Source: Catellatospora sp. KI3 (GTDB lineage: Bacteria > Actinomycetota > Actinomycetes > Mycobacteriales > Micromonosporaceae). From it: a stretch of DNA of 64,000 nt. The notes beneath the pieces were generated by a model. The model worked only from the letters and a program-made list of their open reading frames with translations. It was not told where the DNA came from and did no database searches. Positions 10,367 through 25,001 of this stretch are shown here, one piece after another. The DNA is taken from contig NZ_JASAMB010000004.1 of assembly GCF_029948125.1 (NCBI RefSeq), positions 186,001 through 250,000 of the forward strand, in the 5' to 3' direction. Numbering within the stretch: the first letter of the stretch is position 1; every line of letters starts with the position of its first letter. The position numbers were made by a program, and so were the translations under genes.

Positions 10367-10402
10367 GCCCGAACTGTCGGTCGGACGGCCTACGGTGCAG
10401 GC

Positions 10403-10981: not shown

Positions 10982-11008
10982 GTTCCGCCGTCGGGCCGCT
11001 CGCCCGTT

Positions 11009-11056
11009 AGGAAGGGTCCCTTGTACTACAGATTCCGATAAGAAGGGGCCCTTCCT
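11009..11056. repeat. 48-bp AGGAAGGG inverted-repeat element
   Basis: AGGAAGGGTCCCTT (11009-11022) is the inverted complement of AAGGGGCCCTTCCT (11043-11056) at 13 of 14 positions, with a 20-base centre. It is intergenic. Similar AGGAAGGGGCCCTT palindromes are common between genes in Micromonospora relatives (recalled, not searched). Confidence 0.7.
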
Positions 11057-11233
11057 TTCCCCGGGGCGGGGCGGTGATGGGGCAGGTCACAGGGTGTGGG
11101 GGTGGTCACGGGGGTTCTGTCGGCTGCTGGTGGTGCGGGTGTCGCGTTCGCGGCTCAGCCGGGCTTGCGGCGGTGGTCGAATCGTCGGCGAACACAGCGG
11201 ACGGTCCGTCCGCGACTGACGAGGGGAACACCC

Positions 11234-12076
11234 ATGCGGCTCCACCGAGCCACCGCACTGCTCGCGTCCGCCATCACGTTCGCGTCCCTGGCCCTGGCGC
11301 CCACCGCCGCCGGGGCCGACCCCGACCTGTTCTACTCGTCGTACGGCATCGCCAAGGCGCACGAGGTCAAGAACAACCTGAACCTGATCGGCTGGCCGGG
11401 CGAGAACGCGTACAACTACTACCCGGGCAAGAACGGGCACCCCAGCAGCAGCACCAACTCGGTGGTGTGGGGGACGCCCGGCTCGCCGTACACGTACGAG
11501 GCGAAGACCACCTGCGCGCCGTTCGTGACCCTGTCGCTCAAGGCCGCCTACGGCTGGGCCGACGACACCTACTTCAGCACCTACCTGGGCAGCACCAGCC
11601 CGACCTCGGCGCAGTACTACGCCAAGTTCACCGCCGGCACGGTGCCCAACCTGGACCGGCGCACCAAGGTCACCGAGCTGGTCCCCGGCGACCTCATCGC
11701 CATCAAGTACAGCGGCAGCGACTCCAGCGCCGGCGACCCGACCGGGCACACCGCGTTCTACGCGGGCCGCACCCAGGTCGAGCGGGACGGCGACGCCGCG
11801 ACCGTGGAGTGGGCCGTCAGCGTCGTGGACTCGACCAGCAACCCGCACGGCGTCGCCAGCACCAACCCGGCCTCGCCGTACCTGAACTTCCCGGACACCC
11901 GCGCCGTCGGCGCGACCGAGTACGACGGCGTGGGCCAGGGCTACCTGGTCATCCAGGCCGACGCGACCGGCACGGTGCTCGGCTACTGGTGGGGCATCAA
12001 CGAGAACCTGACCTCTCAGTTCCACGCGGTGGCCGACCGGCCGATCGCGTTCGCGCACATCGTCGCCGCGGCGTGA
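11234..12076 (+). CDS. secreted NlpC/P60-like protein
   Basis: A 280-residue exported protein with a clear signal peptide (residues 1-30, cut near AGA/DPD). The mature part has TTCAPFVTLSLKAAYG, then LVPGDLIAIKY and GHTAFYAG. This Cys, loop and His spacing is that of papain-like NlpC/P60 or amidase folds, so it may be a cell-wall peptidase or amidase. Overall similarity to known members is weak, and a C-terminal part (YLVIQADATGTVLGYWWGIN) is unlike the core family. The start is the ATG after GAGGGG, though the frame is open earlier. Confidence 0.72.
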   Translation: MRLHRATALLASAITFASLALAPTAAGADPDLFYSSYGIAKAHEVKNNLNLIGWPGENAYNYYPGKNGHPSSSTNSVVWGTPGSPYTYEAKTTCAPFVTLSLKAAYGWADDTYFSTYLGSTSPTSAQYYAKFTAGTVPNLDRRTKVTELVPGDLIAIKYSGSDSSAGDPTGHTAFYAGRTQVERDGDAATVEWAVSVVDSTSNPHGVASTNPASPYLNFPDTRAVGATEYDGVGQGYLVIQADATGTVLGYWWGINENLTSQFHAVADRPIAFAHIVAAA

Positions 12077-12094
12077 CCCGCCCATCGTGACGAC

Positions 12095-12136
12095 GCGGTG
12101 CCGCACGCTCCCGAGATCCGGGGCGTGCGGCACCGC
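12095..12136. terminator. bidirectional hairpin terminator
   Basis: A perfect 14-bp stem, GCGGTGCCGCACGC with GCGTGCGGCACCGC, and a 14-base loop, between the convergent NlpC-like gene and the minus-strand remnant. Confidence 0.75.
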
Positions 12137-12142
12137 CGCGTC

Positions 12143-12530
12143 TCAGCGCTGCCGCGGCGTCCAGTCCGCCCGGCGGCCGAGGTAGGCCAGCAGCGCCTCG
12201 ACCGGGTCGGCGGCCGCGGCGACGGGCAGCTCGGGCGCGTAGGCCCCGTACGCCCGCAGCGGCTCGACGATCTCGCGTGCCACGGCCAGCAGCTGTGCTG
12301 CGGCCTGGTCGCTCAGCGGCGACGCGGCGCCGACCGCGACGGCGATGTCCCAGGCGTGTACGGCGGCGTCAAGCGCCGCCGCTCCGGCCGCGATCCACAG
12401 TGGCAGCGGCCCCTGCGGCAGCGGGACGGGCACCTGCCGCGCGTCCGCGTCGACGGTCGTGAAGGCGGCGGCCGACGCGTCCAGCGCCCGCCGCATCGCG
12501 TCCACCGTGTCGGCGGCGAGCAGGCCAGAC
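12143..12530 (-). pseudogene. C-terminal remnant of a TIGR03086/maleylpyruvate isomerase-like protein
   Basis: The last ~128 codons read as the C-terminal half of a TIGR03086-type metal-binding DinB protein: ADTVDAMRRALDAS, AALDAAVHAWDIAVA and LLAYLGRRADWTPR. The N-terminal helix with the first metal-binding His is absent. The frame stays open to 12703, but codons beyond about 12530 lose the strong G/C third-position bias and match no family pattern. Plus-strand reading of that part is coding-like instead. I conclude the gene is cut at about 12530-12540. Confidence 0.6.
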
Positions 12531-12538
12531 GGCGGCTC

Positions 12539-12721
12539 ACCGAGTGGGACGGCGGCTCCGGCAGCTGGCGGCCGATCGAAGAGGACCCCGAACCCGGCGA
12601 ATTCCAGACCCTGGAAGGACCGGACAGCCCGACGGGGACGACCATCGGCCGCGGTTACGGCCTGTGGGTCTTCTCCTGCCCGACGTCCTTCGACCACCCG
12701 CACCGCACCGCGATGCAGTGA
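12539..12721 (+). pseudogene. C-terminal fragment of an unknown protein
   Basis: The last 60 codons before a TGA read TEWDGGSGSWRPIEEDPEPG and end YGLWVFSCPTSFDHPHRTAM plus a final Gln. Codon use is mostly G/C-ending, and composition (W, P, D, E, aromatic residues) is that of a real protein, followed by a strong terminator in the correct direction. Upstream of about 12539 the same frame is only the antisense of the TIGR03086 remnant, and no start codon with an RBS is seen. It is best explained as the 3' end of a broken gene. I do not recognise the family. Confidence 0.5.
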
Positions 12722-12727
12722 CCTCTG

Positions 12728-12767
12728 CCGGACAGCCCGGCGCTCGGCTGAGCGCCGGGCTGTCCGG
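12728..12767. terminator. strong bidirectional terminator
   Basis: A perfect 18-bp stem (12728-12745 with 12750-12767) and a GGCT loop, followed on the plus strand by TCGTTGTTA. It also lies just beyond the stop of the minus-strand AA10 gene. Confidence 0.85.
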
Positions 12768-12779
12768 TCGTTGTTACGG

Positions 12780-13898
12780 TCAGACCGGCGAGCAGGTCAG
12801 GGTCGGCGCGCCGTTGCTGCTCTGCGGCGCGTTGCCCAGGAATCCGAACGTGGTGCTGGCCCCGGCGGCGAGGCTGCCGTTGTACGAGACGTTCTTGGCG
12901 GTGGTCGTCGATCCGCTGGTGGTGATCGTCGCACCCCATACCTGGGTGATCGTCTGGCCGTTGGCGAAGGTGACGGTGACGGTCCACTTGGTGATGGCGG
13001 CCGATCCGGCCGTCACCTTGACCTCACCCTGGAACCCGCCCGGCCACTGGCCGGTCAGCGCGTACGTGGCCGAGCAGCCGCCCGGCAGCGGCGACGGCGA
13101 CGCCGACCGCGAGGGCGACGGGGACGGGCTGGCCGAACGCGACGGCGACGGGGAGGGGGACGCCGACCGGGACGGCGAGACCGACGGCGACGGGCTGTTC
13201 GTGCCGCCGAAGTTCACGTCGCTGCAGAAGTAGTACGACTGGTCCAGGTGGCTGGCCTGCCAGATGGTGAACAGCATGCCCCGCCCGCTGCGGCCGGGGG
13301 CGCTGCCGTTGACCATGATCGACACACCGCCGCCGCTCTCCGGGGTCCACTGCGCGGCCGGGGTGTTGCCGATCTGGCCGACAAGCTCCAGGTCACTCCA
13401 CTTCAGCGCCTGGGTGACCGGGTTGAAGCCCTGCTTGGTGGCGTACACCCAGATGTAGTCGGCGCCGTGGAGAGCGCCGTCGAACAGCTTGATCCGGAAG
13501 TTGGTGCTGATGTTCTGCGCCTTCCAGTCCCCGACCGTGTCCATCGAGGAGTAGAAGCCGTTCTGGGTGCGCCCGGCGCTGCACAGCTGGCCGTCGGGGA
13601 TGGCGCCCTGGTGGTTGCCCGCGACACCCTCCCGGAACAGCGAGTTCCAGTTCCACATGGCGTTCGGGTTGGCCTGCCAGGCCTGCCAGCACATCGGGTC
13701 GAGGGTGGCCATCTGGGGGTTCTGGAAGTCGCTGCCCCAGCGGGCCCAGCAGCCGTAGTTGCGCGAGGCCGGGTCGACCACGTTCCCGTGCGCGTCGGCG
13801 ACCTTGGCCAGGGCCGTGGTGAGCAGCAGGATCGAGGTCAGGGCCACGACCAGGGACGAGATGATCAGTTTGCCGCGGGTTGCGGCGAGTGAGGACAT
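12780..13898 (-). CDS. AA10 lytic polysaccharide monooxygenase with CBM2
   Basis: A 372-residue exported copper enzyme that oxidatively cleaves chitin or cellulose. The signal peptide ends ADA, so the mature protein starts with His37 (HGNVVDPASR), the first half of the copper histidine brace. His144 in FDGALHGADYIW is the likely second ligand, and SYYFCSDVNF carries the axial aromatic. Residues about 238-275 are a PSPSRSAS-type linker, then a C-terminal CBM2 (CSATYALTGQWPGGFQGEVK). The long form with SRNYGCWARWG resembles cellulose-active members. The carbohydrate theme is shared with the xylanase at 19257. Confidence 0.93.
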   Translation of the reverse strand: MSSLAATRGKLIISSLVVALTSILLLTTALAKVADAHGNVVDPASRNYGCWARWGSDFQNPQMATLDPMCWQAWQANPNAMWNWNSLFREGVAGNHQGAIPDGQLCSAGRTQNGFYSSMDTVGDWKAQNISTNFRIKLFDGALHGADYIWVYATKQGFNPVTQALKWSDLELVGQIGNTPAAQWTPESGGGVSIMVNGSAPGRSGRGMLFTIWQASHLDQSYYFCSDVNFGGTNSPSPSVSPSRSASPSPSPSRSASPSPSPSRSASPSPLPGGCSATYALTGQWPGGFQGEVKVTAGSAAITKWTVTVTFANGQTITQVWGATITTSGSTTTAKNVSYNGSLAAGASTTFGFLGNAPQSSNGAPTLTCSPV

Positions 13899-14075
13899 GA
13901 TGGCTCCAAGACATCGGAGGTACGGATGTCACGCGCGCTGGAGTGGCGCGGGCCCGGTCCGCAGGCGCTGGCGCGCGTGCTGGACACCGACGTGATCGGT
14001 CGTCGGCGATGCGATGGTCGGATGCGTGCCCGGCATCCATACCGGCTGCGTGGCTCCCGCAGCATGCCCGGCTAA

Positions 14076-14103
14076 ACTTTACACATTCCAATAAATGTGT
14101 CAA
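14076..14103 (-). promoter_or_regulatory. sigma70-like promoter with an inverted repeat in its spacer, for the AA10 gene
   Basis: On the minus strand, TTGACA (14103-14098) is separated by 16 bases from TAAAGT (14081-14076). The spacer holds an ACACATT/AATGTGT inverted repeat (14081-14100) that a repressor could occupy. The predicted 5' leader to the AA10 start is about 170 bases. The A/T richness contrasts with the surroundings. Confidence 0.55.
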
Positions 14104-14149
14104 TGAATGCCCGCATCGGCACGGTTCCGCCAGCCGATACGCTGGCCGG

Positions 14150-15079
14150 ATGGACCGCGCCGCGTCATTCGATCTGCTCCCGCCGGACCTGCCCGTCGTG
14201 ACTCAGCTCAGCCGTATCGCCGACGCCCGGGGCTGGCTGGCCGAGCTGCCCGAACTGATCGCCCAGGTGCGTGAGCGCTTCCAGCTCACCCTGTCCCCGC
14301 CGCTGCGCGGCGGCAGCTGCAGCTGGGTCGCGCCCGCCACGCTGCCCGACGGCACCGGCGTCATCGTGAAGATCGCCTGGCCGCACCCCGAGATGTACGG
14401 CGAACCCGCCGCGCTGCGGCTGTGGCAGGGCGACGGCGCCGTCCGGCTGCTCGCCCACGACCCTCGGCACCACGCGCTGCTGCTGGAGCGCTGCGATCCC
14501 GGCCTGCCGCTGGGCGACTCCACCGCGCCCGCCGACGAACGGCTGCGGCAGGGTGCGCGCGTGCTGCGACGGCTGTGGCGGGCGGCCCCGACCGGCGGGT
14601 TCGACCCGCTGGACAGGGTGACCGCCCACTGGGCCGACCTGGTCGACGAGCGCATGGCCCGGCTGCGGCCCGGCTACGACCCCGACCTGGTCGCCTACGG
14701 CGCCCGGCTGCTGCGGGAGCTGCCCGCGACCGCCGACCGCCGGGTGCTGCTACACGGCGACTTCAACCCCAACAACGTCCTGTCCTGCGGCGACGGCCGC
14801 TGGCTCGCGATCGACCCCAAGCCGATGGCGGGCGATCCCGCGTACGACCCGTGGCCGCTGCTGGAGCAGGTCGACGACCCGTTCGCGCACCCGGACCCGG
14901 CCGCGGTCCTGGCCGCACGGCGCGACCTGCTCGCCGCCGAGCTGTCCGTCGACCCGCAGCGGATCGTACGCTGGGCGGTGGCCCGCCGGGTCGAGACGGC
15001 GCTGTGGCTCGCCCATCACGGCGACACGCCGGGCGGCGCGGCGGTGATGGGCGAAGCGCGGACGCTGGCCGAGTTGTGA
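14150..15079 (+). CDS. APH(6)/hydroxyurea-resistance-family small-molecule kinase
   Basis: A 309-residue kinase-fold phosphotransferase of the streptomycin 6-kinase/Hur family. It shows the nucleotide-positioning segment VIVKIAWPHPEMYGEPAALR, the catalytic HGDFNPNN at about residues 202-209, and the metal-binding IDPKPMAGDPAYDPW, all typical of the family. No Shine-Dalgarno is seen. TACGCT lies six bases before the ATG, so a leaderless mRNA is likely. It could modify an aminoglycoside, but housekeeping or unknown substrates are common, and resistance should not be assumed. Confidence 0.87.
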   Translation: MDRAASFDLLPPDLPVVTQLSRIADARGWLAELPELIAQVRERFQLTLSPPLRGGSCSWVAPATLPDGTGVIVKIAWPHPEMYGEPAALRLWQGDGAVRLLAHDPRHHALLLERCDPGLPLGDSTAPADERLRQGARVLRRLWRAAPTGGFDPLDRVTAHWADLVDERMARLRPGYDPDLVAYGARLLRELPATADRRVLLHGDFNPNNVLSCGDGRWLAIDPKPMAGDPAYDPWPLLEQVDDPFAHPDPAAVLAARRDLLAAELSVDPQRIVRWAVARRVETALWLAHHGDTPGGAAVMGEARTLAEL

Positions 15080-15080
15080 A

Positions 15081-15109
15081 CGGCCGCGGGCGGCGACCAC
15101 CCGCGGCCG
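15081..15109. terminator. bidirectional hairpin terminator
   Basis: CGGCCGCGGG pairs with CCCGCGGCCG around a nine-base loop, between the convergent kinase gene and the exported CPTCWG protein gene. Confidence 0.7.
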
Positions 15110-15112
15110 CGA

Positions 15113-15649
15113 TCAGCCCCAGCAGGTCGGGCAGTTGGGGCCCTGGTCGACCATCCCGTACTCGATCGAGATGGCCGCGGGCCTGTCGACCAGCGGGGAG
15201 TCGACCGGTATCTGCGCGCCGACCTCCTTCATCCGTCCGTCGCCGGGCGTGACGGTGACGGTGACCGAGCGGCAGTCCAGGCGCACGTTCGGCGCGGCCA
15301 GCAGGCACACCGCCTGCGTCTCATCCGGTGCGCCGACCTTCGCCTCGAAGAGCGGCGGCAGCGGCGCGCCGCCCCAGTACGTCGTCGCGGTGCCGTAGGT
15401 GTGGCCGTTGGAGAGGTAGACGGCCAGTGCGAACACCTCGTACTGGGTGGGCGGGTGGCACGTCTGGAAGCGGCCGTGCAGCATCAGACTGCCGTCGTAG
15501 TTCATCGCGCCGTCGTCGATGTGGCCGGTGGTGGCGGTGCCGGCGGCACAGCTCATCCACTTGAACCGGTCGGTGGCCGCGTGCGCGGGTGCGCCAAGGG
15601 CCAGCAGCACCGCCAGCACCGAGATCAGCGCGGCAAGTCGACGTCTCAT
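15113..15649 (-). CDS. exported protein with C-terminal CPTCWG motif, copy A
   Basis: A 178-residue secreted protein of unknown function. The signal peptide (MRRRLAALISVLAVLLALG) is cut near AHA. The mature part has Cys in WMSC, QTCHPP, AVCLL and LDCRS, and ends GPNCPTCWG with a CxxC pair. It is 30-40 percent similar by eye to the product at 18160-18711, including ETQAVCLL/DTTAVCLL and the identical tail. AGAGGAG precedes the ATG, which lies two bases after the stop of the LuxR-type regulator, so the two are translationally coupled. No domain is recognised. Confidence 0.85.
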   Translation of the reverse strand: MRRRLAALISVLAVLLALGAPAHAATDRFKWMSCAAGTATTGHIDDGAMNYDGSLMLHGRFQTCHPPTQYEVFALAVYLSNGHTYGTATTYWGGAPLPPLFEAKVGAPDETQAVCLLAAPNVRLDCRSVTVTVTPGDGRMKEVGAQIPVDSPLVDRPAAISIEYGMVDQGPNCPTCWG

Positions 15650-15651
15650 GA

Positions 15652-16692
15652 TCACTCCTCTTCCGGTTCGCCCGGATCCGCGACGCGGTCGGATCCGGGA
15701 TCGTCTCCGGCCCCGAGCACGAGGCCGAGCTGAAACCTGTTGATGACGTGGTACCGCTCCATCAGGCCGCTGATCGTGTACGCCACGGTGCGCAGGCTGA
15801 TCTCGAGCTTCGCCGCCACGGCGGCGTCGGTGAATCCCTTGGCCAGCAGCGCTAGCACCGCTTGCTCCCGAGGGGTGAGGTCCATGGGTGGTTTCCAATC
15901 CCGTATCGGATCCCGGGCGCGGTCCCAATGCTCGTGGAAGAACGCGACCAGCTGTTCCACCACGGTTGGGGCGGTGATCTCCCAGGCGCCCGCCGCGAGG
16001 CGGTCCGGATCGATCGGAAGGATCGCGCAGCGACGATCGATGAGCATGATTTTCGACGGGAGGCTGGGCAGTTGCCGGAAGGCGAGGCCGTAGGCGTTGA
16101 GCTCGTCGGTGTGCCAACCCGACTCGTCCTCGGCCGTGGGCGGCACCCCCAGCGTGCGCACCTGCATGCCTCGGGCGTGCAGCGCGCGGTTGAGCGGAGC
16201 AGCCGCCTTGACCGTCTCGGCGCTGAACGCCGGCTCCGGGTTCATCGCCAGGTGCTCGCGGCGCGCCCCGTTGATCAGCTGCGCCAGGCGGTCACGAACC
16301 CCTGCCACGGTGAACAGCGGCCGTACGTCGCGGGCCGCCATGCGGTGCGGGTCGGGCACGAACTCCGGATTGATCAAGTGGGTGAGCCGCTCGCGCAGCC
16401 GGTGCCGGGCCGCGGCCTCCACCTGGCTGCGCCGTCGCAGCCCGGCGACGACCTCGGTGGCGGACCGCGCCGTCCACTGGCGACCGTCTCCGGTCCCCAA
16501 CGGCAGCGCGGCCACCGCACCGATGGCGAGCAGTTCGTCGAGCGCTCCGCGCACCCGCTGGTTCTTCCATCCCAGCGAGGCTCCGGTCTGGTCGACCGAC
16601 CAGGGACCGAAGGCGGCGAGCGTCCGGAAGACGAGATCCGCCCCCGCCGACACCCCCCACCGCGACAGCGACGGCACGACCTGCGTCTGCAC
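15652..16692 (-). CDS. LuxR-type HTH regulator with TrmB/PLD-like sensor domain
   Basis: A 346-residue regulator. Residues about 10-85 look like a winged helix (WSVDQTGASLGW, then RVRGALDELLAIGAV). Residues about 115-275 resemble the phospholipase-D-like sensor of TrmB-type regulators, and the last ~60 residues are a LuxR HTH (LTPREQAVLALLAKGFTDAA). GTG at 16692 follows an AGGGGGGA ribosome site, although the frame is open to 16836. Its own leader holds two palindromes, and it is co-transcribed with copy A of the CPTCWG protein, which suggests autoregulation and control of that protein. Confidence 0.85.
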   Translation of the reverse strand: MQTQVVPSLSRWGVSAGADLVFRTLAAFGPWSVDQTGASLGWKNQRVRGALDELLAIGAVAALPLGTGDGRQWTARSATEVVAGLRRRSQVEAAARHRLRERLTHLINPEFVPDPHRMAARDVRPLFTVAGVRDRLAQLINGARREHLAMNPEPAFSAETVKAAAPLNRALHARGMQVRTLGVPPTAEDESGWHTDELNAYGLAFRQLPSLPSKIMLIDRRCAILPIDPDRLAAGAWEITAPTVVEQLVAFFHEHWDRARDPIRDWKPPMDLTPREQAVLALLAKGFTDAAVAAKLEISLRTVAYTISGLMERYHVINRFQLGLVLGAGDDPGSDRVADPGEPEEE

Positions 16693-16709
16693 TGGTGTAT
16701 CCCCCCTGA

Positions 16710-16744
16710 AAACGATGCCATCCCCCGTCGAGCTGACATCGTTT
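16710..16744 (-). promoter_or_regulatory. operator-like inverted repeat just upstream of the LuxR regulator start (module copy 1)
   Basis: AAACGATG and CATCGTTT flank a 19-base centre that contains CCATCCCCCGTCG. It lies 18 bases upstream of the start, directly next to the ribosome site. The same element recurs at 18903-18930 with the outer pair changed from C-G to T-A. Confidence 0.6.
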
Positions 16745-16830
16745 CCGAGCGGGACGCTGCCAGCCCCGGCCGGGCTGGCGGGACTCACGGTAAAGACTCC
16801 GACCTGGCCCAGCCAGGATGTCGCCGCGCA

Positions 16831-16846
16831 TTGCACTTTTGTGCAA
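16831..16846. promoter_or_regulatory. 16-bp palindrome TTGCACTTTTGTGCAA (module copy 1)
   Basis: A perfect 6-4-6 inverted repeat 138 bases before the regulator start. An identical 16-mer occurs at 19023-19038 at nearly the same distance from the equivalent start codon, so it is a strong candidate binding site for the adjacent LuxR-type regulator. Confidence 0.65.
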
Positions 16847-16874
16847 GCGTCGGCGGCGGGCGACCGCTACCGGC

Positions 16875-18053
16875 TCAGGCGGTCGCCTCGACGGTTTCGC
16901 CCGAGACCGCCTCGGTCCGGCCGCCGTGCCAGGCCAGCACGCCGCACGCGGCAGCGGCCACGGCGCACACCGGCCACAGGGCGGCGGGCGCGAGGCCGTA
17001 CAGGGCGGCGCCCAGCGGGGCGGCGAGCATGGTGCCGCTGGTCGCGGCGGCGGTGTAGAGACCCTGGTAGCGACCGGTCAGCCCGTCCGGGGCCCGGTCG
17101 AGCACGTACGCGGTCGCGGTGGTCTTGTAGAGGATCTCGCCCGCGGTGAGCACCACCATCGCGGCGATCACCAGCGCCGCGCCGGTGCCGAGGCCGAACA
17201 GCGCCATGCCGGCGCCGACCAGGGCGTAACCGGTGCCGAGGATCCTGGGGGCCGGCCGGTGCCGCAGCAGCATGGTCACCGGGATCTCCAGCAGCAGGAT
17301 CAGCCCGGAACCGACCGCGATGAGCGTGGCGTACAGGGTGAGCCCCTGCCCGTGGTCGCGCAGGTGCACCGGCAGGGTGGTGTACAGCTGCCGGTACACG
17401 ACGTCCACGACCACGATCGCGGGCAGCAGCGCCAGCAGGGTCCGGTCGGCGCGCACACTGGACCACAGCCCGGACGACCGCGCGGCCGGGGCGGTGGCGG
17501 CCACCGGCTCGGCGCGCAGCAGCGCGGCGGTGACGGCCCGTACCGCCAGGACGACCAGTCCGTCGATCACGAACAGCGCGGTGAAGTGCTCCACCGCCAG
17601 CAGCGCACCCAGTGGCGGGCCGATGACGCAGCCCGCGTTGAACGCCGCCCGGCCGATCGCGACGGCCCGGCGCCGGTCACCGGGCGCCACGGCCAGCGCG
17701 GTGAGCGCGCCCTGGGCGGTGCCCGCCGTGGCGCCGCTGTAGCCGAGCACGGCGGTCGACACCGCGAGCAGCGCCACCGGCGTCCACGGTATGAGCAGGG
17801 TGACGACCCCGGCGACGGTCGAGGCGGCCAGCAGGACGCGGCGGTGGCCGTACCGGTCGCCGAACCCGCCGCCGGTCAGGTTGCCCGCGAGCAGGCCCAC
17901 GCCCAGTGCCCCGCTGACCAGGCCGGCCTGGGCCAGCGGCAGGGCACGCGGTCCGGTCAGGTACAGGAACAGGAAGGTGAAGACGAAGGACCCGGCGGCG
18001 TTGACGAAGCGGCCGACGGCGAGGATCCACACGATCCGGGGGATGTCGCGCAC
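16875..18053 (-). CDS. MFS transporter, DHA1-like
   Basis: A 392-residue inner-membrane protein with about 12 hydrophobic helices. The loop 2-3 motif GGGFGDRYGHRRVLL follows helix 2, as in drug:H+ antiporter (DHA1) family transporters. The N-terminus RIVWILAVGRFVNAAGSFVF is typical of small actinobacterial efflux or sugar permeases. It lies between the two copies of the CPTCWG module on the same strand, but has its own spacing to each neighbour. The substrate is unknown. Confidence 0.88.
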   Translation of the reverse strand: MRDIPRIVWILAVGRFVNAAGSFVFTFLFLYLTGPRALPLAQAGLVSGALGVGLLAGNLTGGGFGDRYGHRRVLLAASTVAGVVTLLIPWTPVALLAVSTAVLGYSGATAGTAQGALTALAVAPGDRRRAVAIGRAAFNAGCVIGPPLGALLAVEHFTALFVIDGLVVLAVRAVTAALLRAEPVAATAPAARSSGLWSSVRADRTLLALLPAIVVVDVVYRQLYTTLPVHLRDHGQGLTLYATLIAVGSGLILLLEIPVTMLLRHRPAPRILGTGYALVGAGMALFGLGTGAALVIAAMVVLTAGEILYKTTATAYVLDRAPDGLTGRYQGLYTAAATSGTMLAAPLGAALYGLAPAALWPVCAVAAAACGVLAWHGGRTEAVSGETVEATA

Positions 18054-18122
18054 GCGGGCACCCTATGCCCATGATCACTCTCGCGCAAAGCCATTAGGCC
18101 ACCCCGCCCGGCCCGATCTGTG

Positions 18123-18154
18123 GACGCGGTGCCGGGTCGACCCGGCACCGCGTC
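18123..18154. terminator. hairpin terminator after CPTCWG copy B
   Basis: GACGCGGTGCCGGG pairs perfectly with CCCGGCACCGCGTC around a TCGA loop, 5 bases beyond the minus-strand stop. Confidence 0.75.
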
Positions 18155-18159
18155 GGATG

Positions 18160-18711
18160 TCATCCCCAGCAGGTCGGGCAGTTCGGCCCGCCGCCGCCGG
18201 GGTCGTCGCTGTACTTCAGCGGGACCGTGACCGGCCGGGCGACCGACGGCGCGTCCGTGGGCACAGGATCTCCAAGTCGGGGCACGGCCTGCCCGTTCAC
18301 CACCTCGAACACGATCGCGCGGCAGTCCAGGCGCGTGGTCGGGCTGACCAGCAGGCATACGGCGGTCGTGTCCGAGGGCAGTCCCACGTTGACCGCGAAC
18401 GACGGCGCCGCCGGACTCACCGACCGCAGGTAGGGGTGGGCCCAGCCCCGCACCTCGGAGGGCCGGTAGAACACGATCGAGAAGATCTCGAAGGTCTCGA
18501 TGTCCGAGCAGGCCACGAGCTGGCCGCGGAAGACCGAGGACACGCCCGGCACGACCGTGAGACTGTCGATCTGCCCGGTGACCACCGTCGGCGGGCAGTA
18601 CGTGCTCATCCACGAGTAGGCGTCGCCGGTGAAGCCCCCGGCATGCGCCGAACCGGGCGAGCCGAGAGCCAGCAGCAGCGCCGTCGCGGCGGCTAGAAAG
18701 GAACGTCGCAT
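18160..18711 (-). CDS. exported protein with C-terminal CPTCWG motif, copy B
   Basis: A 183-residue secreted paralogue of the protein at 15113-15649. The signal peptide (MRRSFLAAATALLLALG) is cut near AHA. The mature part shares WMS, a TGxID segment, TTAVCLL, RLDCRA and the identical GPNCPTCWG end. Starts at 18711 or 18714 (adjacent ATG codons) are both possible. The frame is open back to a GTG at 18882, which corresponds to the start of a deleted regulator, but the signal peptide argues for the internal start. Function is unknown. Conserved Cys pairs suggest a disulfide-stabilised extracytoplasmic protein. Confidence 0.8.
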   Translation of the reverse strand: MRRSFLAAATALLLALGSPGSAHAGGFTGDAYSWMSTYCPPTVVTGQIDSLTVVPGVSSVFRGQLVACSDIETFEIFSIVFYRPSEVRGWAHPYLRSVSPAAPSFAVNVGLPSDTTAVCLLVSPTTRLDCRAIVFEVVNGQAVPRLGDPVPTDAPSVARPVTVPLKYSDDPGGGGPNCPTCWG

Positions 18712-18848
18712 CATCCACCTGTCTGCGGTCGATCTATACTCCGAACACCGGGCGGCCTTCTCAGGACGCCGGTGGCAGCACGGAACCGCACAGCACCGAG
18801 CACTTCGTCGAGCCCGCCGACCCCTCGTCGGCTCGCGGTGACACTCTG

Positions 18849-18882
18849 ACCGCGACATCGACGGCGCGACCCGCATCCGCAC
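18849..18882 (-). pseudogene. 5' remnant of a second LuxR-type regulator gene
   Basis: On the minus strand the first 34 bases from GTG at 18882 match the first 34 bases of the regulator at 16692 at about 28 positions, encoding MRMRVAPSMSR against MQTQVVPSLSR. After that the similarity stops, and 137 bases later the CPTCWG copy B begins. The rest of the regulator has been deleted. Upstream palindromes matching copy 1 confirm the homology. Confidence 0.65.
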
Positions 18883-18902
18883 TCGGTGCCTCCGCTGCCT
18901 CC

Positions 18903-18930
18903 TGATGCCATCCCCCGTCGGCTGACATCA
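18903..18930 (-). promoter_or_regulatory. operator-like inverted repeat, module copy 2
   Basis: TGATG and CATCA flank a centre containing CCATCCCCCGTCGGCTGA, nearly identical to 16710-16744. The outer C-G pair of copy 1 is T-A here on both arms, so symmetry is preserved. This is the pattern expected of a selected site. Confidence 0.55.
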
Positions 18931-19022
18931 TTCCGCGTCGGATCTTGCCGTGCGGTCCCGTGCCGCTCCGGTGGACTCAACATAAAGATCGCGACGCACG
19001 GACGCCAGGATCGCGACCGCCG

Positions 19023-19038
19023 TTGCACTTTTGTGCAA
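19023..19038. promoter_or_regulatory. 16-bp palindrome TTGCACTTTTGTGCAA, module copy 2
   Basis: Identical to the palindrome at 16831-16846, and here extended by CCG/CGG on both sides into a 22-bp inverted repeat. It lies 140 bases from the remnant GTG and about 220 bases upstream of the divergent xylanase gene, so it might also influence that gene. Confidence 0.65.
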
Positions 19039-19256
19039 CGGCGGCGGCGCGGTGGCGCGACGCACCGGGGACCGTTTGACGCCCCGCAGGCCCGGCTCAT
19101 AGCATCGACCCGGATCGCCTTCCGGGCAGACCGTCGCACCGCGACGGTCGGCACGCCTTTCGGGAGTCGGCGGGTCACAGGCGTCCGCAGCCCGCGCGAC
19201 CGGCCGTACCCCTGGGCAGGGTGCGCGGCGGCGCGCACGCCCGTTGAGGACCCCAC

Positions 19257-21296
19257 GTGTCTCCACTGTCCTGGAAACGCCTGCATGCCGGTCTCGGCAT
19301 GCTCCTGCTGGCCGCCACGCTGCCTGTCGCGGTCATCGCCCTGTCCCCCGAGCCGGTCCGCGCCGCGGACCCGGTCACCGTCCTCACCAGTGACTTCGAG
19401 GACGGCACCACCCAGAGCTGGGCCATGCGCGGCACCGCCGAGGTCGTGGCCAGCAGCACCGCCGCCGCGCACGCCGGCACCCGCAGCCTGCTCACCAGCG
19501 GCCGCACCGCCGCCTGGAACGGCCCGAGCCGCAGCCTGCTGTCCACCGTCACCAAGGGCGTGCGCTACACGTACTCGGTGTGGGCGCGGACGGCGACCGG
19601 GGCGGGCACCGCGCAGCTGCGGATGAGCGTCGAGCGGCGACTGGGCACCACGACCAACTATGAGCAGGTCGTCAACAGCACCAACGTGTCCGAATCCGGC
19701 TGGACCCAGCTGACCGGCTCGTACACGCTGGCCAACGACGCCGACTTCTTCGCCGTGTACGTCGAGACGGTCAGCGGCACGGCCTCGTTCCACATCGACG
19801 ACTTCACCCTGTCGTACGTCCCGGCGAGCCCGATCCAGACCGGCATCCCGTCGCTGAAGACCGTCTTCGCCAACGACTTTCCGATCGGGGCGGCCGTCGG
19901 CCGCTCGGAGCTGCTGGCCGAGCACGGCCAGCTGCTGGCCAAGCACTTCAACTCGCTCACGCCCGGCAACGCGCTCAAGTGGGACGCGACCGAGCCCACC
20001 GAGGGCGTGTTCAACTACACCGACGCCGATGCGATCGTCGCGTTCGCCAAGGCCAACGGCATCAAGGTGCGCGGGCACACGTTCGTGTGGCACCAGCAGA
20101 CGCCCGCGTGGGTGTTCAACGACGCGGCCGGGCAGCCGATGACCGCCACCGCGGCGAACAAGACGCTGCTGCTGGCGCGGCTGGAGGCGCACATCCGCGC
20201 CGTCGGCACCCGCTACGCCAACGACATCTACGCCTGGGACGTCGTCAACGAGGTCATCGACGAGAACCAGTCCGACGGGCTGCGCCGCAGCACCTGGTTC
20301 AACATCACCGGGCTGGACTTCATCCGGACCGCGTTCCGGGTGGCGCGCCAGGTGGCGCCGAACGCGAAGCTGTACATCAACGACTACAACACCAACGTGG
20401 CGGCCAAGCGCGACAAGCTCTACGCCCTGGTCAGCCAGCTGAAGGCCGAGGGTGTGCCGATCGACGGGGTCGGGCACCAGATGCACGGCAACGTCGACTG
20501 GCCGACCGGCGCCGACGTCGACGCGATGATCGCCAAGTTCATCCCGCTGGGGGTGGAGCAGCAGATCACCGAGATGGACACCAGCATCTACACCAGCTCC
20601 TCGGAGAGCTTCACCACCCCGCCCGCCGAGCGGCTGACCCGCCAGGCCGCCCGGTACAAGGCCTGGTTCGACGTGTACCGCAAGTACAAGGCGAACATCA
20701 CCTCGGTGACGCTGTGGGGTCTGGCCGACGACAACACCTGGCTGGACAGCTACCCGGTCAGCCGCAAGGACTTCCCGCTGCTGTTCGACGTGTCGCTGCA
20801 GGCCAAGGAGGCGTACTGGGCGATCGTCGGCACCACCTCGCCGTCGGCGTCCGCCTCGGCCTCGCCGTCGCCGAGCAGGTCGGCCAGTCCGAGCCCGTCG
20901 GCCAGCGCGTCGCCCAGCGCCTCGCCGAGCCCGTCGCGTAGCGCGTCGCCGTCGCCGACGGCGAGCACGCAGCCGGTGGGCTGCCGGGTGACGTACACGA
21001 TCACCAACCAGTGGAACAACGGGTTCCAGGGTGACGTGGTGATCACGAACATGGGCGCCGCGCCGGTCAGCGGCTGGACGCTGCGGTGGACGTTCGCCAA
21101 CGGCCAGGTGATCAACCAGGCCTGGAACGGCAACTACACCCAGACCGGGGCCAGCGCGGCCGTCACCAACGCGAGCTGGAACGGCACCATCGCGCCGGGG
21201 ACCAGCCAGGGCTTCGGCTTCCTCAGCAGCTGGAGCGGCACCAACAGCAAGCCGACGCTGTTCAGCCTCAACGGCACCAACTGCACGGTCGCCTGA
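19257..21296 (+). CDS. GH10 endo-1,4-beta-xylanase with N-terminal CBM and C-terminal CBM2
   Basis: A 679-residue exported xylanase hydrolysing the xylan backbone. Signal peptide residues 1-38; residues about 42-190 form a CBM4_9/CBM22-type beta-sandwich (VLTSDFEDGTTQSW). The GH10 barrel spans about 195-525 with acid/base Glu332 in WDVVNE and nucleophile Glu439 in ITEMD. A Ser/Pro/Ala linker follows, then CBM2 (CRVTYTITNQWNNGFQGDVV). GTG follows TGAGGA. The linker and CBM2 resemble those of the AA10 enzyme, suggesting both act together on plant biomass. Confidence 0.95.
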   Translation: MSPLSWKRLHAGLGMLLLAATLPVAVIALSPEPVRAADPVTVLTSDFEDGTTQSWAMRGTAEVVASSTAAAHAGTRSLLTSGRTAAWNGPSRSLLSTVTKGVRYTYSVWARTATGAGTAQLRMSVERRLGTTTNYEQVVNSTNVSESGWTQLTGSYTLANDADFFAVYVETVSGTASFHIDDFTLSYVPASPIQTGIPSLKTVFANDFPIGAAVGRSELLAEHGQLLAKHFNSLTPGNALKWDATEPTEGVFNYTDADAIVAFAKANGIKVRGHTFVWHQQTPAWVFNDAAGQPMTATAANKTLLLARLEAHIRAVGTRYANDIYAWDVVNEVIDENQSDGLRRSTWFNITGLDFIRTAFRVARQVAPNAKLYINDYNTNVAAKRDKLYALVSQLKAEGVPIDGVGHQMHGNVDWPTGADVDAMIAKFIPLGVEQQITEMDTSIYTSSSESFTTPPAERLTRQAARYKAWFDVYRKYKANITSVTLWGLADDNTWLDSYPVSRKDFPLLFDVSLQAKEAYWAIVGTTSPSASASASPSPSRSASPSPSASASPSASPSPSRSASPSPTASTQPVGCRVTYTITNQWNNGFQGDVVITNMGAAPVSGWTLRWTFANGQVINQAWNGNYTQTGASAAVTNASWNGTIAPGTSQGFGFLSSWSGTNSKPTLFSLNGTNCTVA

Positions 21297-21302
21297 CCGG
21301 AC

Positions 21303-21335
21303 GGGTGCGGGTGCCCTCGCCGGGCACCCGCACCC
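21303..21335. terminator. bidirectional hairpin terminator
   Basis: GGGTGCGGGTGCCC pairs perfectly with GGGCACCCGCACCC around a five-base loop, between the convergent xylanase and DUF1906 genes. Confidence 0.8.
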
Positions 21336-21345
21336 GCCTCGCGGG

Positions 21346-22617
21346 TCAGACCCGGGTGATGCGTACCGCGTCGGCCACCACGTAGCCGGTGCCGCTGGTC
21401 CAGCGGCTGACGCCGATCTTGTTACCCGGCCCGGCCGGGAGCGTGAACGTGCCGATGGACACCCACTGGCCGCCGTTGGCCTGCTGGTTGACGTACACGG
21501 ACTGGTTGCCGCCGGTCGTGGCCACGATGAAGGGCGTCAGATTGTTGTAGCCGGGGTCGGCCGGATACCAGACCGAGACCTGGTAGGCGCCGGTGGTCGG
21601 CAGGTCGGCCTGGAACCAGGCGACGTCGCTGGAGTTCACCGGGGTGGCGAACCGGTAGTCGGCCCCGTTGCGCTGCGGCGAGTAGGACGAGGTGCCCCAG
21701 TTGGCGCTGGCGGTGAAGCCGCCCGCCGCGGCGTTGTCGACGGTCGTGCTCCACTGCTGCGGTGCGCCCGGCGCGACGAGGTCGAGGTAGTCGTGGTCGA
21801 TGTTCATCGTCACGCCGCCCCAGGTCTCGTTGCCGCCGCCGGTGTACTGGTGCACCCGCTGGTGGTCCGCCCAGTACGCGTCGGGGCAGTAGGTGCCCGC
21901 GTCGGTGTCGGCCACCCCGTTCCACCAGGCGATCCACAGCTGGTCGACCTGGGTGTAGGCCGGGTTGCCGTACTCGGCGCACACGTCCTTGATGCCGGAG
22001 TTGCCGCTGGAGTACATGCCGGACACGTAGCCGAGTTCGTGCAGGCGCTCGGTCCAGCCGGACAGGAACGACAGCACCGCCGCCTTGCAGGAGGCGCTCG
22101 TCGGGTACGCCTCCATGTCGTTGAAGATGGTGCTGCCGGCGCCGATGCCCAGCGCCTTGGCGGCGGTGGTGGAGCTGTTGGCGGCGGTGCGGCCCTGGGA
22201 GCGGGCCGTGGTCGGGTCAGCCGACATCTTCGGGGCGCGGGTGCCGCAGGGGGCCTGGTAGCCCAGCTCGATCGGCATCAGGTGCCAGCCGTTGGCGACC
22301 TGGTTGGCGACCCAGGTGGCGGTGAGGTTCGGCTGGGAGCAGGAGCGGCTGCCGCCGCTGATGTAGATGCCGACGGCCCGGTACGGCGAGCTGCTGCGCC
22401 AGGCGTTCATGTTGGACTGCGACGGGGCGGCGCAGGTCTCGAAGCCCTTGCCGGTGTAGGTACCCGGCTGCGGGGCGACCGCGAGCGGCGCGGCGGCCGC
22501 CGCCAGGGGTGTCGGCCCAGCCCCGGCGGTCGCGGCCGGTGCGGCCGCCCAGGTCGCGGCCACCACGAGTATCGCCGCCGCGGCCGTACCACCGATGCGG
22601 GCCAGTGCTCTTCCCAT
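21346..22617 (-). CDS. secreted DUF1906 glycoside hydrolase-like protein with golvesin-type domain
   Basis: A 423-residue exported protein. After the signal peptide comes a DUF1906 (GH25-like TIM barrel) domain, about residues 55-270, with GIYISGGSRSCSQ, IFNDMEAYP (the acidic D-E pair expected in the active site) and DHQRVHQYTGG. The last ~130 residues form a golvesin C-terminal-like beta domain (FTASANWGTSSYSPQRNGAD, ending YVVADAVRI). AAGGAGG fixes the ATG at 22617. It probably acts on peptidoglycan or another extracellular glycan, but no activity is established for DUF1906. Confidence 0.87.
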   Translation of the reverse strand: MGRALARIGGTAAAAILVVAATWAAAPAATAGAGPTPLAAAAAPLAVAPQPGTYTGKGFETCAAPSQSNMNAWRSSSPYRAVGIYISGGSRSCSQPNLTATWVANQVANGWHLMPIELGYQAPCGTRAPKMSADPTTARSQGRTAANSSTTAAKALGIGAGSTIFNDMEAYPTSASCKAAVLSFLSGWTERLHELGYVSGMYSSGNSGIKDVCAEYGNPAYTQVDQLWIAWWNGVADTDAGTYCPDAYWADHQRVHQYTGGGNETWGGVTMNIDHDYLDLVAPGAPQQWSTTVDNAAAGGFTASANWGTSSYSPQRNGADYRFATPVNSSDVAWFQADLPTTGAYQVSVWYPADPGYNNLTPFIVATTGGNQSVYVNQQANGGQWVSIGTFTLPAGPGNKIGVSRWTSGTGYVVADAVRITRV

Positions 22618-22709
22618 CCGCGCCTCCTTGAAGATTTCTTGCATTCCTCCGTCGTGAATAGAAAGCTTTTACCACACATCGAGCGCCGTCGGTAGGCCGC
22701 GCTTACCGG

Positions 22710-25001
22710 TCAGCTCGGCTCGGCCCGGACCTGCCGCGCGGTGGCCCGCAGCTTGCGGCGCAGATCCCCGGTCAGCGGATGCCCGACGGCGTTGAGGATG
22801 CGGTACGCGGTCAGCCAGTGCTCGCGCGCGGTCTCCAGGTCGCCGACCGCCTCCACCGCGTCGCCGAGATGGGTGAGCAGCTGCGCCTGCAGCACCTGGT
22901 CGTCCAGCTCCCGGGCCAGCCGCAGCCCCCGCTCGAACTGCCGCACCGCCTGCGCGTGGTCGCCCAGGTGCTGGTACACCAGCCCCAGCCAGTCCCAGCC
23001 GACCGCCTCGTTGGCGCGGTCGCCGCAGCGCCGCAGCGCGTCGATCGCCGCGAGGTGGTACGGCACCGCCTCCCGGTGCTCGCCCGCCATGTCGAGGTAC
23101 AGGCCGACCGCCAGCCCCGACTTGCCCACCCAGTACCCGTCCCGCAGCTCGGTGTACAGGGCGAGGGCCTGCTGCGCCTGTTCGAGCGCGCGGACCAGGT
23201 CGCCCTGCAGCCAGTACACGTAGGACAGCACGTAGTGGGCCTCGCCCGCGCCGGCCCGGTCGCCGACCGCCCGGCTCAGCGCGACGGCCTGGCTCATGTG
23301 CCGGTGGGCGTCGTCGAACCGGGCCAGGCGGCCCTGCACGGCACCGAGGAACCGGTGCGCGTGGGCGGCCGCGGGCTGGTCGGTCATCGCGGCCGCCGCG
23401 CGCAGCGCTACCGCCCAGGCGGCGCCCTCCTCACGCCAGAGCCGCCGCTCGTGCAGGAACGTGTCCAGCGCCCAGGTGAGCTGCCACGCCTGCATGTGCA
23501 GCCCCGCGTCGGCGGCCTGCCGCAGCGTCGCGAGCAGGACCCGGTGCTCGTTCTGCAGCCAGCGCACGGCCGCGTCGAGGCTGTTGTAGGCCCGGTGCGC
23601 GCCGGGACGGACCGCCAGCACCAGCGGGATCGGCGGCCGGACCGGGTTCAGCACCAGATCGGCCTGGTAGGCGGCGTGGGTGTAGTGGTCGAGCAGCCGG
23701 GTCAGCGCCGCCCGCCGCGACTCGTCCGACTCCTGCGCGCGGACCAGCTCGGCGGCGTACGCCCGCAGCAGGTCGTGCAGCTGGTAGCGGCCCGGCACGT
23801 GCTCGGTCACCAGGCTCGCGTCGGCCAGCTCCCGCAGCGTACGCCGCACCTGCGGAACGGGCAGCCCGGCCAGCGCGGCGACCGCCGCCACCGCGATGTC
23901 GGGCCCGGCCGCCAGGCCCAGCAGCCGGAACAGCGCGGCGGCGGCCGGGCTCAGCGCCCGGTACGACCACGAGAACACCGCCCGCACGCCCTGCCCGTCG
24001 CCGTCGGCCAGCACCTCCAGCTGCCCTCGGGTGCGGCGCAGCTCCAGCGCGAGGGTGACCGGCGAGAACCCGGTCAGCCGGGCCCTGGCTCCGGCCAGCG
24101 CGAGGGCCAGCGGCAGCCGCCCGCACGCGGCCGCGATGGCGGTGACGGCGTCCCGGTCGCCCGGCTCGGTGCCCATCCGGCGGGCCAGCAGCTCCACCGC
24201 CTCGGCGACGGGCGGCACGTCCAGCGGCACCGCCAGGGCGCCGGTGTGCGCGATCAGCGTCGCCAGGCGGCGCCTGCTGGTGACCACGGTGCGGGTGGCC
24301 GCGCCGCTGGGCACCAGCGGGCGCACCTGATCTGCGTCGCGCGCGTTGTCCAGCACCACCAGCAGCCTGCGGTCGGCCGTCAGGCTGCGGTACAGCGCCA
24401 CCTGCGCCTGCGGGTCGGTCGGCACCCGGTCGGGCGCGACACCGAGCGCGTCCAGGAAGCCCCGCACGGCCGCGACCGGGTCCACCGCCTCGTCGCTGTC
24501 GTCGAAGCCGCGCAGGTTCAGGTACAGCTGGCCGTCGGCGTACCCGGCGGCGACCCGGTGCGCCCAGTGCACCGCGAGCGCGGTCTTGCCGACCCCGGCC
24601 ACCCCGGAGATCACCACCAGGCCCGGCGGCGCCTGGTCGAGGGCGGCGAGTTCGCCGTCGCGGCCGGTGAACCCGGTGACGTCGGCGGGCAGCTGCGCGG
24701 GCGTCAGCAGATCGGGGGCGTCCGAGGGCGGCGGTTCGACCCGCTCGGCGTCGTCCGCGCGGTCGCCGGACTGCTGCGGCTCCGGCTCGGCGGGCAGGGC
24801 GGACTGCTGGAAGCGCTCGCGGTCCTCCGGCGACAGGGCCAGCGCGTCGGCCAGCGCCCGGACGCTGCTCGGCCGCGGTGCCGCGACCCGCCCCGCCTCC
24901 AGCTCGCGGATCTGGCGCACGCTCAGCCCCGACGACGCGGCCAGTTCCTCCTGCGTGAGCAGCGCCTGCGTACGCAGGGCCCTCAGCGTGCTGCCGAACA
25001 C
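22710..25001 (-). CDS. XRE/NB-ARC/TPR (STAND) transcriptional regulator
   Basis: A 763-residue regulator. An XRE HTH (residues about 5-60: LRALRTQALLTQEELAASSG) is followed by a Pro/Asp-rich linker. An NB-ARC ATPase comes next with Walker A GVAGVGKTAL and Walker B LLVVLDNARD, then a winged helix region and about six TPR units to the end. GGAGGAG five bases before the GTG at 25001 sets the start, and the 44 codons further upstream are not family-like. STAND proteins of this type usually control secondary metabolism or development. A palindrome lies in the divergent region. Confidence 0.88.
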   Translation of the reverse strand: MFGSTLRALRTQALLTQEELAASSGLSVRQIRELEAGRVAAPRPSSVRALADALALSPEDRERFQQSALPAEPEPQQSGDRADDAERVEPPPSDAPDLLTPAQLPADVTGFTGRDGELAALDQAPPGLVVISGVAGVGKTALAVHWAHRVAAGYADGQLYLNLRGFDDSDEAVDPVAAVRGFLDALGVAPDRVPTDPQAQVALYRSLTADRRLLVVLDNARDADQVRPLVPSGAATRTVVTSRRRLATLIAHTGALAVPLDVPPVAEAVELLARRMGTEPGDRDAVTAIAAACGRLPLALALAGARARLTGFSPVTLALELRRTRGQLEVLADGDGQGVRAVFSWSYRALSPAAAALFRLLGLAAGPDIAVAAVAALAGLPVPQVRRTLRELADASLVTEHVPGRYQLHDLLRAYAAELVRAQESDESRRAALTRLLDHYTHAAYQADLVLNPVRPPIPLVLAVRPGAHRAYNSLDAAVRWLQNEHRVLLATLRQAADAGLHMQAWQLTWALDTFLHERRLWREEGAAWAVALRAAAAMTDQPAAAHAHRFLGAVQGRLARFDDAHRHMSQAVALSRAVGDRAGAGEAHYVLSYVYWLQGDLVRALEQAQQALALYTELRDGYWVGKSGLAVGLYLDMAGEHREAVPYHLAAIDALRRCGDRANEAVGWDWLGLVYQHLGDHAQAVRQFERGLRLARELDDQVLQAQLLTHLGDAVEAVGDLETAREHWLTAYRILNAVGHPLTGDLRRKLRATARQVRAEPS

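Follow-up and report, generated by a model that had tools for sequence, protein, structure and literature searches.

Introduction

ComA, a response regulator, is phosphorylated and carries a receiver domain; TrmB is a sugar-responsive regulator of archaea, and the TPR is the fold of the RRNPP receptors. Here, we describe a two-gene module of a soil actinomycete whose parts are of known kinds (a LuxR helix-turn-helix (HTH), a TrmB/PLD fold and a ComA-like box) but whose combination is apparently undescribed. It lies in a stretch of 64,000 nucleotides (nt) of Catellatospora sp. KI3 (contig NZ_JASAMB010000004.1, positions 186,001 to 250,000), which we call the window and whose coordinates are used throughout. 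The module consists of a palindrome, a gene for a LuxR-type regulator and a gene for an exported protein, and it stands in the window twice, the second time without its regulator. We consider it likely that the adjacent TrmB/PLD-LuxR regulator uses the palindrome as its operator, that the two genes form an autoregulated pair and that copy 2 is driven in trans by the surviving regulator. The larger point, beyond the view from a single window, is that on sequence comparison the two genes are a recurrent pair in the family: the window probably holds one complete copy of a recurrent Micromonosporaceae module and a regulator-less derivative controlled in trans.

The ComA box of Bacillus subtilis consists of two inverted copies of TTGCGG separated by 4 nt (PMC4797271). 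On that description, the window regulator shares with ComA a LuxR/GerE-type HTH and an operator with TTGC ends and a 4-nt spacer between hexamers, and L120, L133 and other relatives carry TTGCGGGATCCCGCAA, an exact TTGCGG-N4-CCGCAA. The window hexamer is TTGCAC, though the geometry and the TTGC/GCAA ends agree. Unlike ComA, the window regulator has a winged helix and a PLD/TrmB-like half, and the Pfam scan detected no receiver domain in it. Nor were ComQ/ComX/ComP-like neighbours seen among the scanned neighbour genes, although no search aimed at them was made.

TrmB and TrmBL2 (e.g. 5BPD, 2F5T) have in common with the window regulator a predicted N-terminal winged helix and PLD-like domain; the latter differs in adding a C-terminal LuxR HTH, which the operator appears to follow. 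In the RRNPP two-gene quorum-sensing systems, an intracellular regulator gene adjoins the gene of an exported (pro)peptide (PMC10075063). The adjacency of regulator and exported product is alike, whereas the small-propeptide size is matched only by the short partners described below (13/56 and 17/45), the window partners having 178 and 183 amino acids (aa). Further differences are the PLD/TrmB-LuxR regulator, in which the Pfam scan found no TPR domain, the CxxC tail and the many partners of ~180 aa.

More distant TrmB-like LuxR regulators align over nearly their full length, those of same-class genomes at 32–35% identity to L151 and those of Streptomyces plasmids at up to 32.5%. No TTGC-N8-GCAA was present in the fetched DNA of four of them (L204–L206 and the Streptomyces locus L208), and no open reading frame (ORF) with a CxxC tail follows their regulators. 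Since these four have neither box nor partner, the pairing marks the present subfamily. The open-licence literature in PubMed Central (titles and beginnings of abstracts) yielded no description of the regulator-exported pair.

The palindrome and its conservation

In copy 1, the ComA-box-like palindrome TTGCACAAAAGTGCAA (16831–16846, minus strand), of the form TTGC-N8-GCAA, heads a regulator of 346 aa with a GTG start (15652–16692, minus strand) and an exported protein of 178 aa (15113–15649, minus strand). An identical palindrome (19023–19038, minus strand) heads copy 2, in which a remnant of the regulator's 5' end is followed by an exported protein of 183 aa (18160–18711, minus strand). The sequence-only reading that drew attention to the locus had placed these 16-bp palindromes correctly, and they are the sole matches in the window at up to three mismatches, where 0.02 were expected. 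In the 8.2 Mb Catellatospora genome, TTGCAC-N4-GTGCAA and TTGCA-N6-TGCAA are found at exactly two sites, both at the modules, and allowing 2 mismatches to TTGCACWWWWGTGCAA adds two sites. Eleven Catellatospora genomes hold 34 TTGCA-N6-TGCAA sites, 20 at module loci and 14 elsewhere.

We compared regulators in two sets. For the first, 53 of 151 genomes matched at E ≤ 1e-20, and a regulator was included if its tblastn match scored 100 bits or more in one piece and started within the first 20 residues, giving 73 regulators in 74 sequences (the window and 73 fetched loci). Pieces below 100 bits or starting past residue 20 (e.g. L110, L140 and HTH-only fragments) were left out, and most matches below ~135 bits were not fetched. 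The held-out set comprises 60 regulators from 58 loci, every match above 100 bits being kept; for L289, L293 and L294, whose matches begin at residue 116 or later, the upstream stretch was placed by extrapolation. An operator was scored as an exact TTGC-N8-GCAA inside 350 bp upstream of the regulator.

By this measure, 36/73 regulators of the first set carry the site, while the same half-sites at any other gap from 2 to 15 occur upstream of 0–1. The held-out set gives 22/60, against 0–1 at gaps of 4–12 other than 8. Among the best upstream 16-mers, TTGCA-N6-TGCAA is exact in 21/73 and was not obtained once in 100 single-base shuffles. On these comparisons, the window palindrome is a member of a conserved predicted operator, TTGC-N8-GCAA. 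A chance repeat, or a terminator of the upstream MFS gene, is disfavoured by this conservation upstream of relatives' regulators. A weak terminator-like site on the plus strand (19013–19026) runs into the copy-2 palindrome; the scan gave two such sites in the region, with 0.8 expected. Elsewhere, an extra box TTGCAGGAA(T/C)GTGCAA lies within ~35 bp beyond the exported-gene stop in two different genera (L181:5672, L064:5119).

The regulator and its recognition helix

The regulator combines a winged helix, a PLD/TrmB-like domain and a C-terminal LuxR/GerE HTH. Its HTH scores 38 bits against Pfam GerE (cutoff 23.5), which places it in the LuxR/GerE family, and its best match among solved structures is ComA. 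The predicted fold of the N-terminal part is the winged helix plus PLD-like sensor domain of TrmB, with a Foldseek E-value of 1.8e-11 to TrmBL2; by sequence, Pfam TrmB did not match the regulator at E ≤ 1.

The recognition helix starts at residue 299, and residue 304, an alanine in the window regulator, tracks base 5 of the operator. In the first set, the box is exact or has one mismatch at 46 regulators: 26 of them pair Ala with A, 19 pair Ser, Thr, Val or Leu with G, and a single one, whose box is the hybrid TTGCACAAAGTCGCAA, pairs Ser with A. The held-out set has five Ala-A, 15 non-Ala-G and one Ser-C, and one box for which the helix was not read. A rule pairing Ala with A and non-Ala with G holds in 45/46 and 20/21 scored cases, respectively. 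On a tree of the pre-HTH part, the box base changes three times and residue 304 four times, the additional residue change being the exception; as the tree is drawn, all three base changes coincide with residue changes. In our view, the residue-base agreement is good evidence, though short of conclusive, for binding of the regulator to its own promoter. Together with the conservation of the operator, it supports direct autoregulation, and the assignment of the palindrome to this regulator in the sequence-only reading holds up on both counts.

HTH-only stretches, corresponding to regulator residues ~261–345, lie beside many modules (L055, L057, L060, L061, L063, L066, L128, L131, L147, and also L194, L195, the Virgisporangium locus L198 and the Streptomyces loci L199 and L200; the first-named loci are partly the same as L179–L197). 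In L055, L057, L060, L061, L063 and L147 such a stretch has a box of its own upstream, and in two Catellatospora species there is a third box upstream of that one, to which no gene is assigned (L063 8309, L057 7901). The HTH-only stretches are possible competitors for the operator; there is none in 10001–24000 of the window.

The exported partner

Directly after 56 of the 73 regulators comes an ORF whose N-terminus is hydrophobic and whose last 34 residues include a CxxC, and in 42 of these 56 a start overlaps the regulator stop by 4 nt. The same kind of partner follows 45/60 held-out regulators, and a stricter test finds one after 51/73 regulators compared with 27/2920 random positions. Exported protein 1 has an alternative in-frame start two codons upstream that would give the 4-nt overlap in the window as well. 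Among the 56 partners, a proline stands two residues before the CxxC in 40 and exactly one residue follows the CxxC in 28; the residue after it is V in 20, W in 16, P in 7, F in 5 and another in 8.

Partner lengths are bimodal. Thirteen partners of the first set have 40–93 aa and consist of a signal peptide, a linker and the CxxC tail, and 43 have 155–224 aa; of the 45 held-out partners, 17 have 45–94 aa and 28 have 166–370 aa. Exported protein 1, a long form, has a signal peptide, a predicted eight-strand beta-sandwich (mean predicted local distance difference test (pLDDT) score 80) and a poorly ordered tail, with block means of 58 and 43, that ends in PNCPTCWG. No Foldseek match to this fold was obtained at E ≤ 0.001, and no Pfam or NCBIfam family matched above a curated cutoff. 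Cysteines C115, C126, C173 and C176 are invariant in 18 aligned exported proteins. Exported proteins diverge faster than the regulators. Several regulator-partner pairs can occur in one genome, e.g. four in G070 (L067 twice, L108, L109); counted as regulator matches, G070 has seven and G084 and G750 have six each.

Copy 2 and its history

The regulator remnant of copy 2 (18849–18882, minus strand) starts with GTG, encodes MRMRVAPSMSR and is in frame with exported protein 2. As had been proposed from the letters of the window, the copy-2 regulator is reduced to about 34 bases: 35 nt align to the regulator at 86%, and similarity fades beyond. From the remnant GTG to the end of exported protein 2 (18160–18882), the window has one open frame of 240 aa, as does C. 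tritici by translation, and an N-terminally extended exported protein 2 is possible. The exported proteins are 35–39% identical, depending on the aligner, and share the CPTCWG tail.

The distance from palindrome to GTG is 138 nt in copy 1 and 140 nt in copy 2, in agreement with the spacing first reported. Over this interval, the palindrome is identical at 16/16 positions and the hairpin block described below at 26/27, whereas the rest agrees at 51/110 (46%). Since the remainder is so little conserved, operator and hairpin are preserved above background; at the 56% identity rate outside the palindrome, the chance of 16 identical bases is ~1e-4.

Exported proteins 1 and 2 group together in the tree with moderate support (82/88). 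Because of this grouping, and because both leaders share a hairpin that nine other Catellatospora leaders lack, the module was probably duplicated in the lineage to which the window species and C. tritici belong. At other loci, two complete modules stand side by side (L067; L061, which is the same as L179), which makes loss of the second regulator the simpler account. Our comparison therefore supports a duplicated operator-regulator-exported protein module with one regulator lost, as the sequence-only reading had it.

Predicted promoter and probable leader hairpin

The predicted −10 element of copy 1 is TACCGT (16787–16792, minus strand), 38 nt past the operator; in copy 2, TATGTT (18979–18984, minus strand), read from the sequence, lies at the same distance. 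All 11 boxed regulators of the window's own Catellatospora clade, the window included, have TAnnnT at 38 nt (eight) or 39 nt (three) past the box, and over all boxes it occurs at 33–45 nt in 12/60, against 4.6 in shuffles. The centre of the operator precedes the first base of TAnnnT by ~46 nt, which puts it near −58 if TAnnnT is the −10 element. Activators typically bind near this position, so the operator's placement makes a positive sign of autoregulation the likelier one.

A second inverted repeat had been noted in both copies, and it is present in both: AAACGATGTCA...TGGCATCGTTT in copy 1 (16710–16744, arms 16710–16717 and 16737–16744, minus strand), directly upstream of the ribosome-binding site, and TGATGTCA...TGGCATCA in copy 2 (18903–18930, arms 18903–18907 and 18926–18930, minus strand). 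As RNA the hairpin is longer than earlier described, with inner pairing of GAUGUCA with UGGCAUC, and it folds at −25.4 kcal/mol in copy 1 (z −3.4) and −22.6 kcal/mol in copy 2 (z −1.8). It is absent from the nine other aligned Catellatospora leaders. Its position downstream of the predicted −10, its folding as RNA and its absence from those leaders disfavour a second DNA operator and make an mRNA leader hairpin the more likely reading. The compensatory pair change claimed for it does exist as a double substitution, but it is a single event, common to C. tritici. A search of the genome for the CCATCCCCCGTCG element found exact matches to ATGNCATCCCCCGTC in the two copies only; once 2 mismatches are allowed, it gives 21 matches in the forward and 23 in the reverse orientation, where a reversed-pattern control gives 6 and 3. 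On exact matching, repeated use of the element across the genome is disfavoured.

Distribution and neighbouring genes

An order-wide search matched 4/150 genomes and a class-wide search 4/296, each including the window's own; the other three of the class-wide search are of the distant kind without box or partner. Within the family, a search with a different query and cutoff matched 75/354 genomes. Within the limits of these queries, the system looks largely confined to Micromonosporaceae.

The gene between the modules (16875–18053, minus strand) encodes an MFS transporter, found at the same place in C. tritici with 91% identity, and is probably not part of the module. A gene for an APH_6_hur (aminoglycoside/hydroxyurea kinase-like) protein (13943–15079) adjoins copy 1 on the opposite strand. 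Polysaccharide-degradation genes surround the modules: by domain scan, 12780–13898 encodes an LPMO with CBM2 and 19257–21296 a GH10 xylanase with CBM2 and CBM_4_9, while 21346–22644 encodes a secreted protein that is GH25 by appearance only. All three are likewise near the modules in C. tritici.

Discussion

In the mechanism that we propose, the regulator would be a one-component transcription factor in which a ligand switches the TrmB/PLD-like sensor half and the LuxR HTH is ComA-like. As a dimer, the HTH would bind TTGC-N8-GCAA, and the bound regulator would activate its own gene together with the coupled exported gene, which usually lies after it, often with a 4-nt overlap, and whose product mostly carries a P-x-C-x-x-C tail followed by V, W, P or F. 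The module would have been duplicated in the window lineage, copy 2 keeping operator, predicted −10, hairpin and exported gene but no more of its regulator gene than the first bases. The surviving regulator would then control both exported proteins in this genome, exported protein 2 in trans, and this is the simplest reading of copy 2 because the sole two exact sites in the genome sit at the two modules. The conservation of operator and gene pairing, the residue-base match and the two-site genome census come from computation; that the regulator binds, activates, acts in trans and may sense the exported tail is what we infer.

Several results weigh against this reading. No exact TTGC-N8-GCAA lies within 350 bp of 37/73 regulators in the first set and 38/60 in the held-out set, and the 14 of 34 TTGCA-N6-TGCAA sites that fall off module loci in the Catellatospora genomes are about as many as in a reversed-pattern control (12). 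The residue-base match rests on three base changes, its formal test comprises one independent supported pair (concordant), too few for significance, and residue 208 ranks slightly above 304 in mutual information. Outside the window's clade, TAnnnT occurs at 33–45 nt in 1/49 boxes (at 36 nt), and in the distant Catellatospora paralogues L120 and L133 it is not at the expected distance, so the promoter assignment is, as predicted from sequence, local to that clade. Between the window species and C. tritici, the ratio of non-synonymous to synonymous substitution (dN/dS) is 0.19 for the regulator, 0.41 for exported protein 1 and, highest, 0.63 for exported protein 2, as expected under relaxing constraint. 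In C. tritici NEAU-YM18, the copy-2 palindrome is degraded ~33 nt from a 10-N gap (L054/L178), and the interval from copy 2 to the xylanase is ~1.4 kb longer. With the gap nearby and the longer stretch, either real loss or poor assembly is possible. The C. tritici palindrome and the dN/dS of copy 2 are what chiefly speaks against copy 2 being firmly retained; the trans control suggested in the sequence-only reading keeps the backing of the two-site census and is weakened by the broken site and the faster evolution of copy 2.

These same observations would suit a copy 2 that is a decaying remnant, its regulator already gone and exported protein 2 evolving fastest, with an operator that plays no part in regulation and is still there by chance or because the copies share a recent origin, leaving the autoregulation of copy 1 unchanged. 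We give this perhaps a one-in-four standing, as exported protein 2 has an intact frame in both species, with its conserved cysteines and CPTCWG tail, its dN/dS is below 1, and operator and hairpin are kept while the rest of the leader is 46% identical. It seems quite improbable that the copy-2 palindrome instead belongs to the GH10 xylanase gene, which is divergent and starts at 19257. The palindrome is 218 bp upstream of that start, and palindromes are directionless, but copy 2 mirrors the minus-strand arrangement of copy 1 down to the 38 nt that separate palindrome and predicted −10, a promoter-like site of its own (19076–19105) lies on the xylanase side, and the C. tritici xylanase is 94% identical yet ~1.4 kb farther off. 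Scarcely more probable is control of these regulators from outside by another factor that binds the palindrome. About half of the family regulators lack the exact site, as such a factor would allow, but the site is found at this subfamily's regulators in several genera, its base 5 tracks the adjacent regulator's own residue 304 (45/46 and 20/21), and its spacing and ends fit the box of ComA, whose HTH is the closest among solved structures.

A further possibility, tentative but somewhat better placed than a decaying copy 2, concerns what the exported protein does: it could be a precursor from which the CxxC tail is set free as a (disulfide) peptide that, after uptake, the PLD/TrmB-like domain senses, with positive feedback. 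The two-gene, often overlapping unit with its self-operator, the disordered tail in the model of the long form, the faster divergence of exported proteins than of regulators and the several pairs per genome (four in G070) all fit this, and the minimal partners of 40–94 aa (13/56 of 40–93 aa and 17/45 held-out of 45–94 aa) suggest a peptide-signal role. Against it, the majority of partners are longer, the one modelled has a folded domain, and the CxxC could equally well be a metal, redox or protein-docking site. Nor did a processing protease, an importer or a ligand site come to light, although no search aimed at them was made.

Autoregulation with trans control of copy 2 is the reading that we prefer. 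Actinomycetes are major antibiotic producers, and to our knowledge peptide-based communication among them is little explored. We can imagine, with more doubt than belief, a new actinobacterial class of two-gene peptide signalling, in which an autoregulated TrmB-LuxR receptor-regulator acts through a ComA-like box and an exported precursor carries the signal in its C-terminal PxCxxC(V/W/F) tail; pairs of paralogues would diversify within genomes, HTH-only mini-proteins would compete for boxes, and the ‘listener-less’ copy 2 would add a second signal to one receptor. The compact recurrent pair with its predicted operator, the predicted specificity residue and the natural case of trans-regulation are all directly testable. 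If the residue-304/base-5 rule is true, operators would be predictable from protein sequence across the family.

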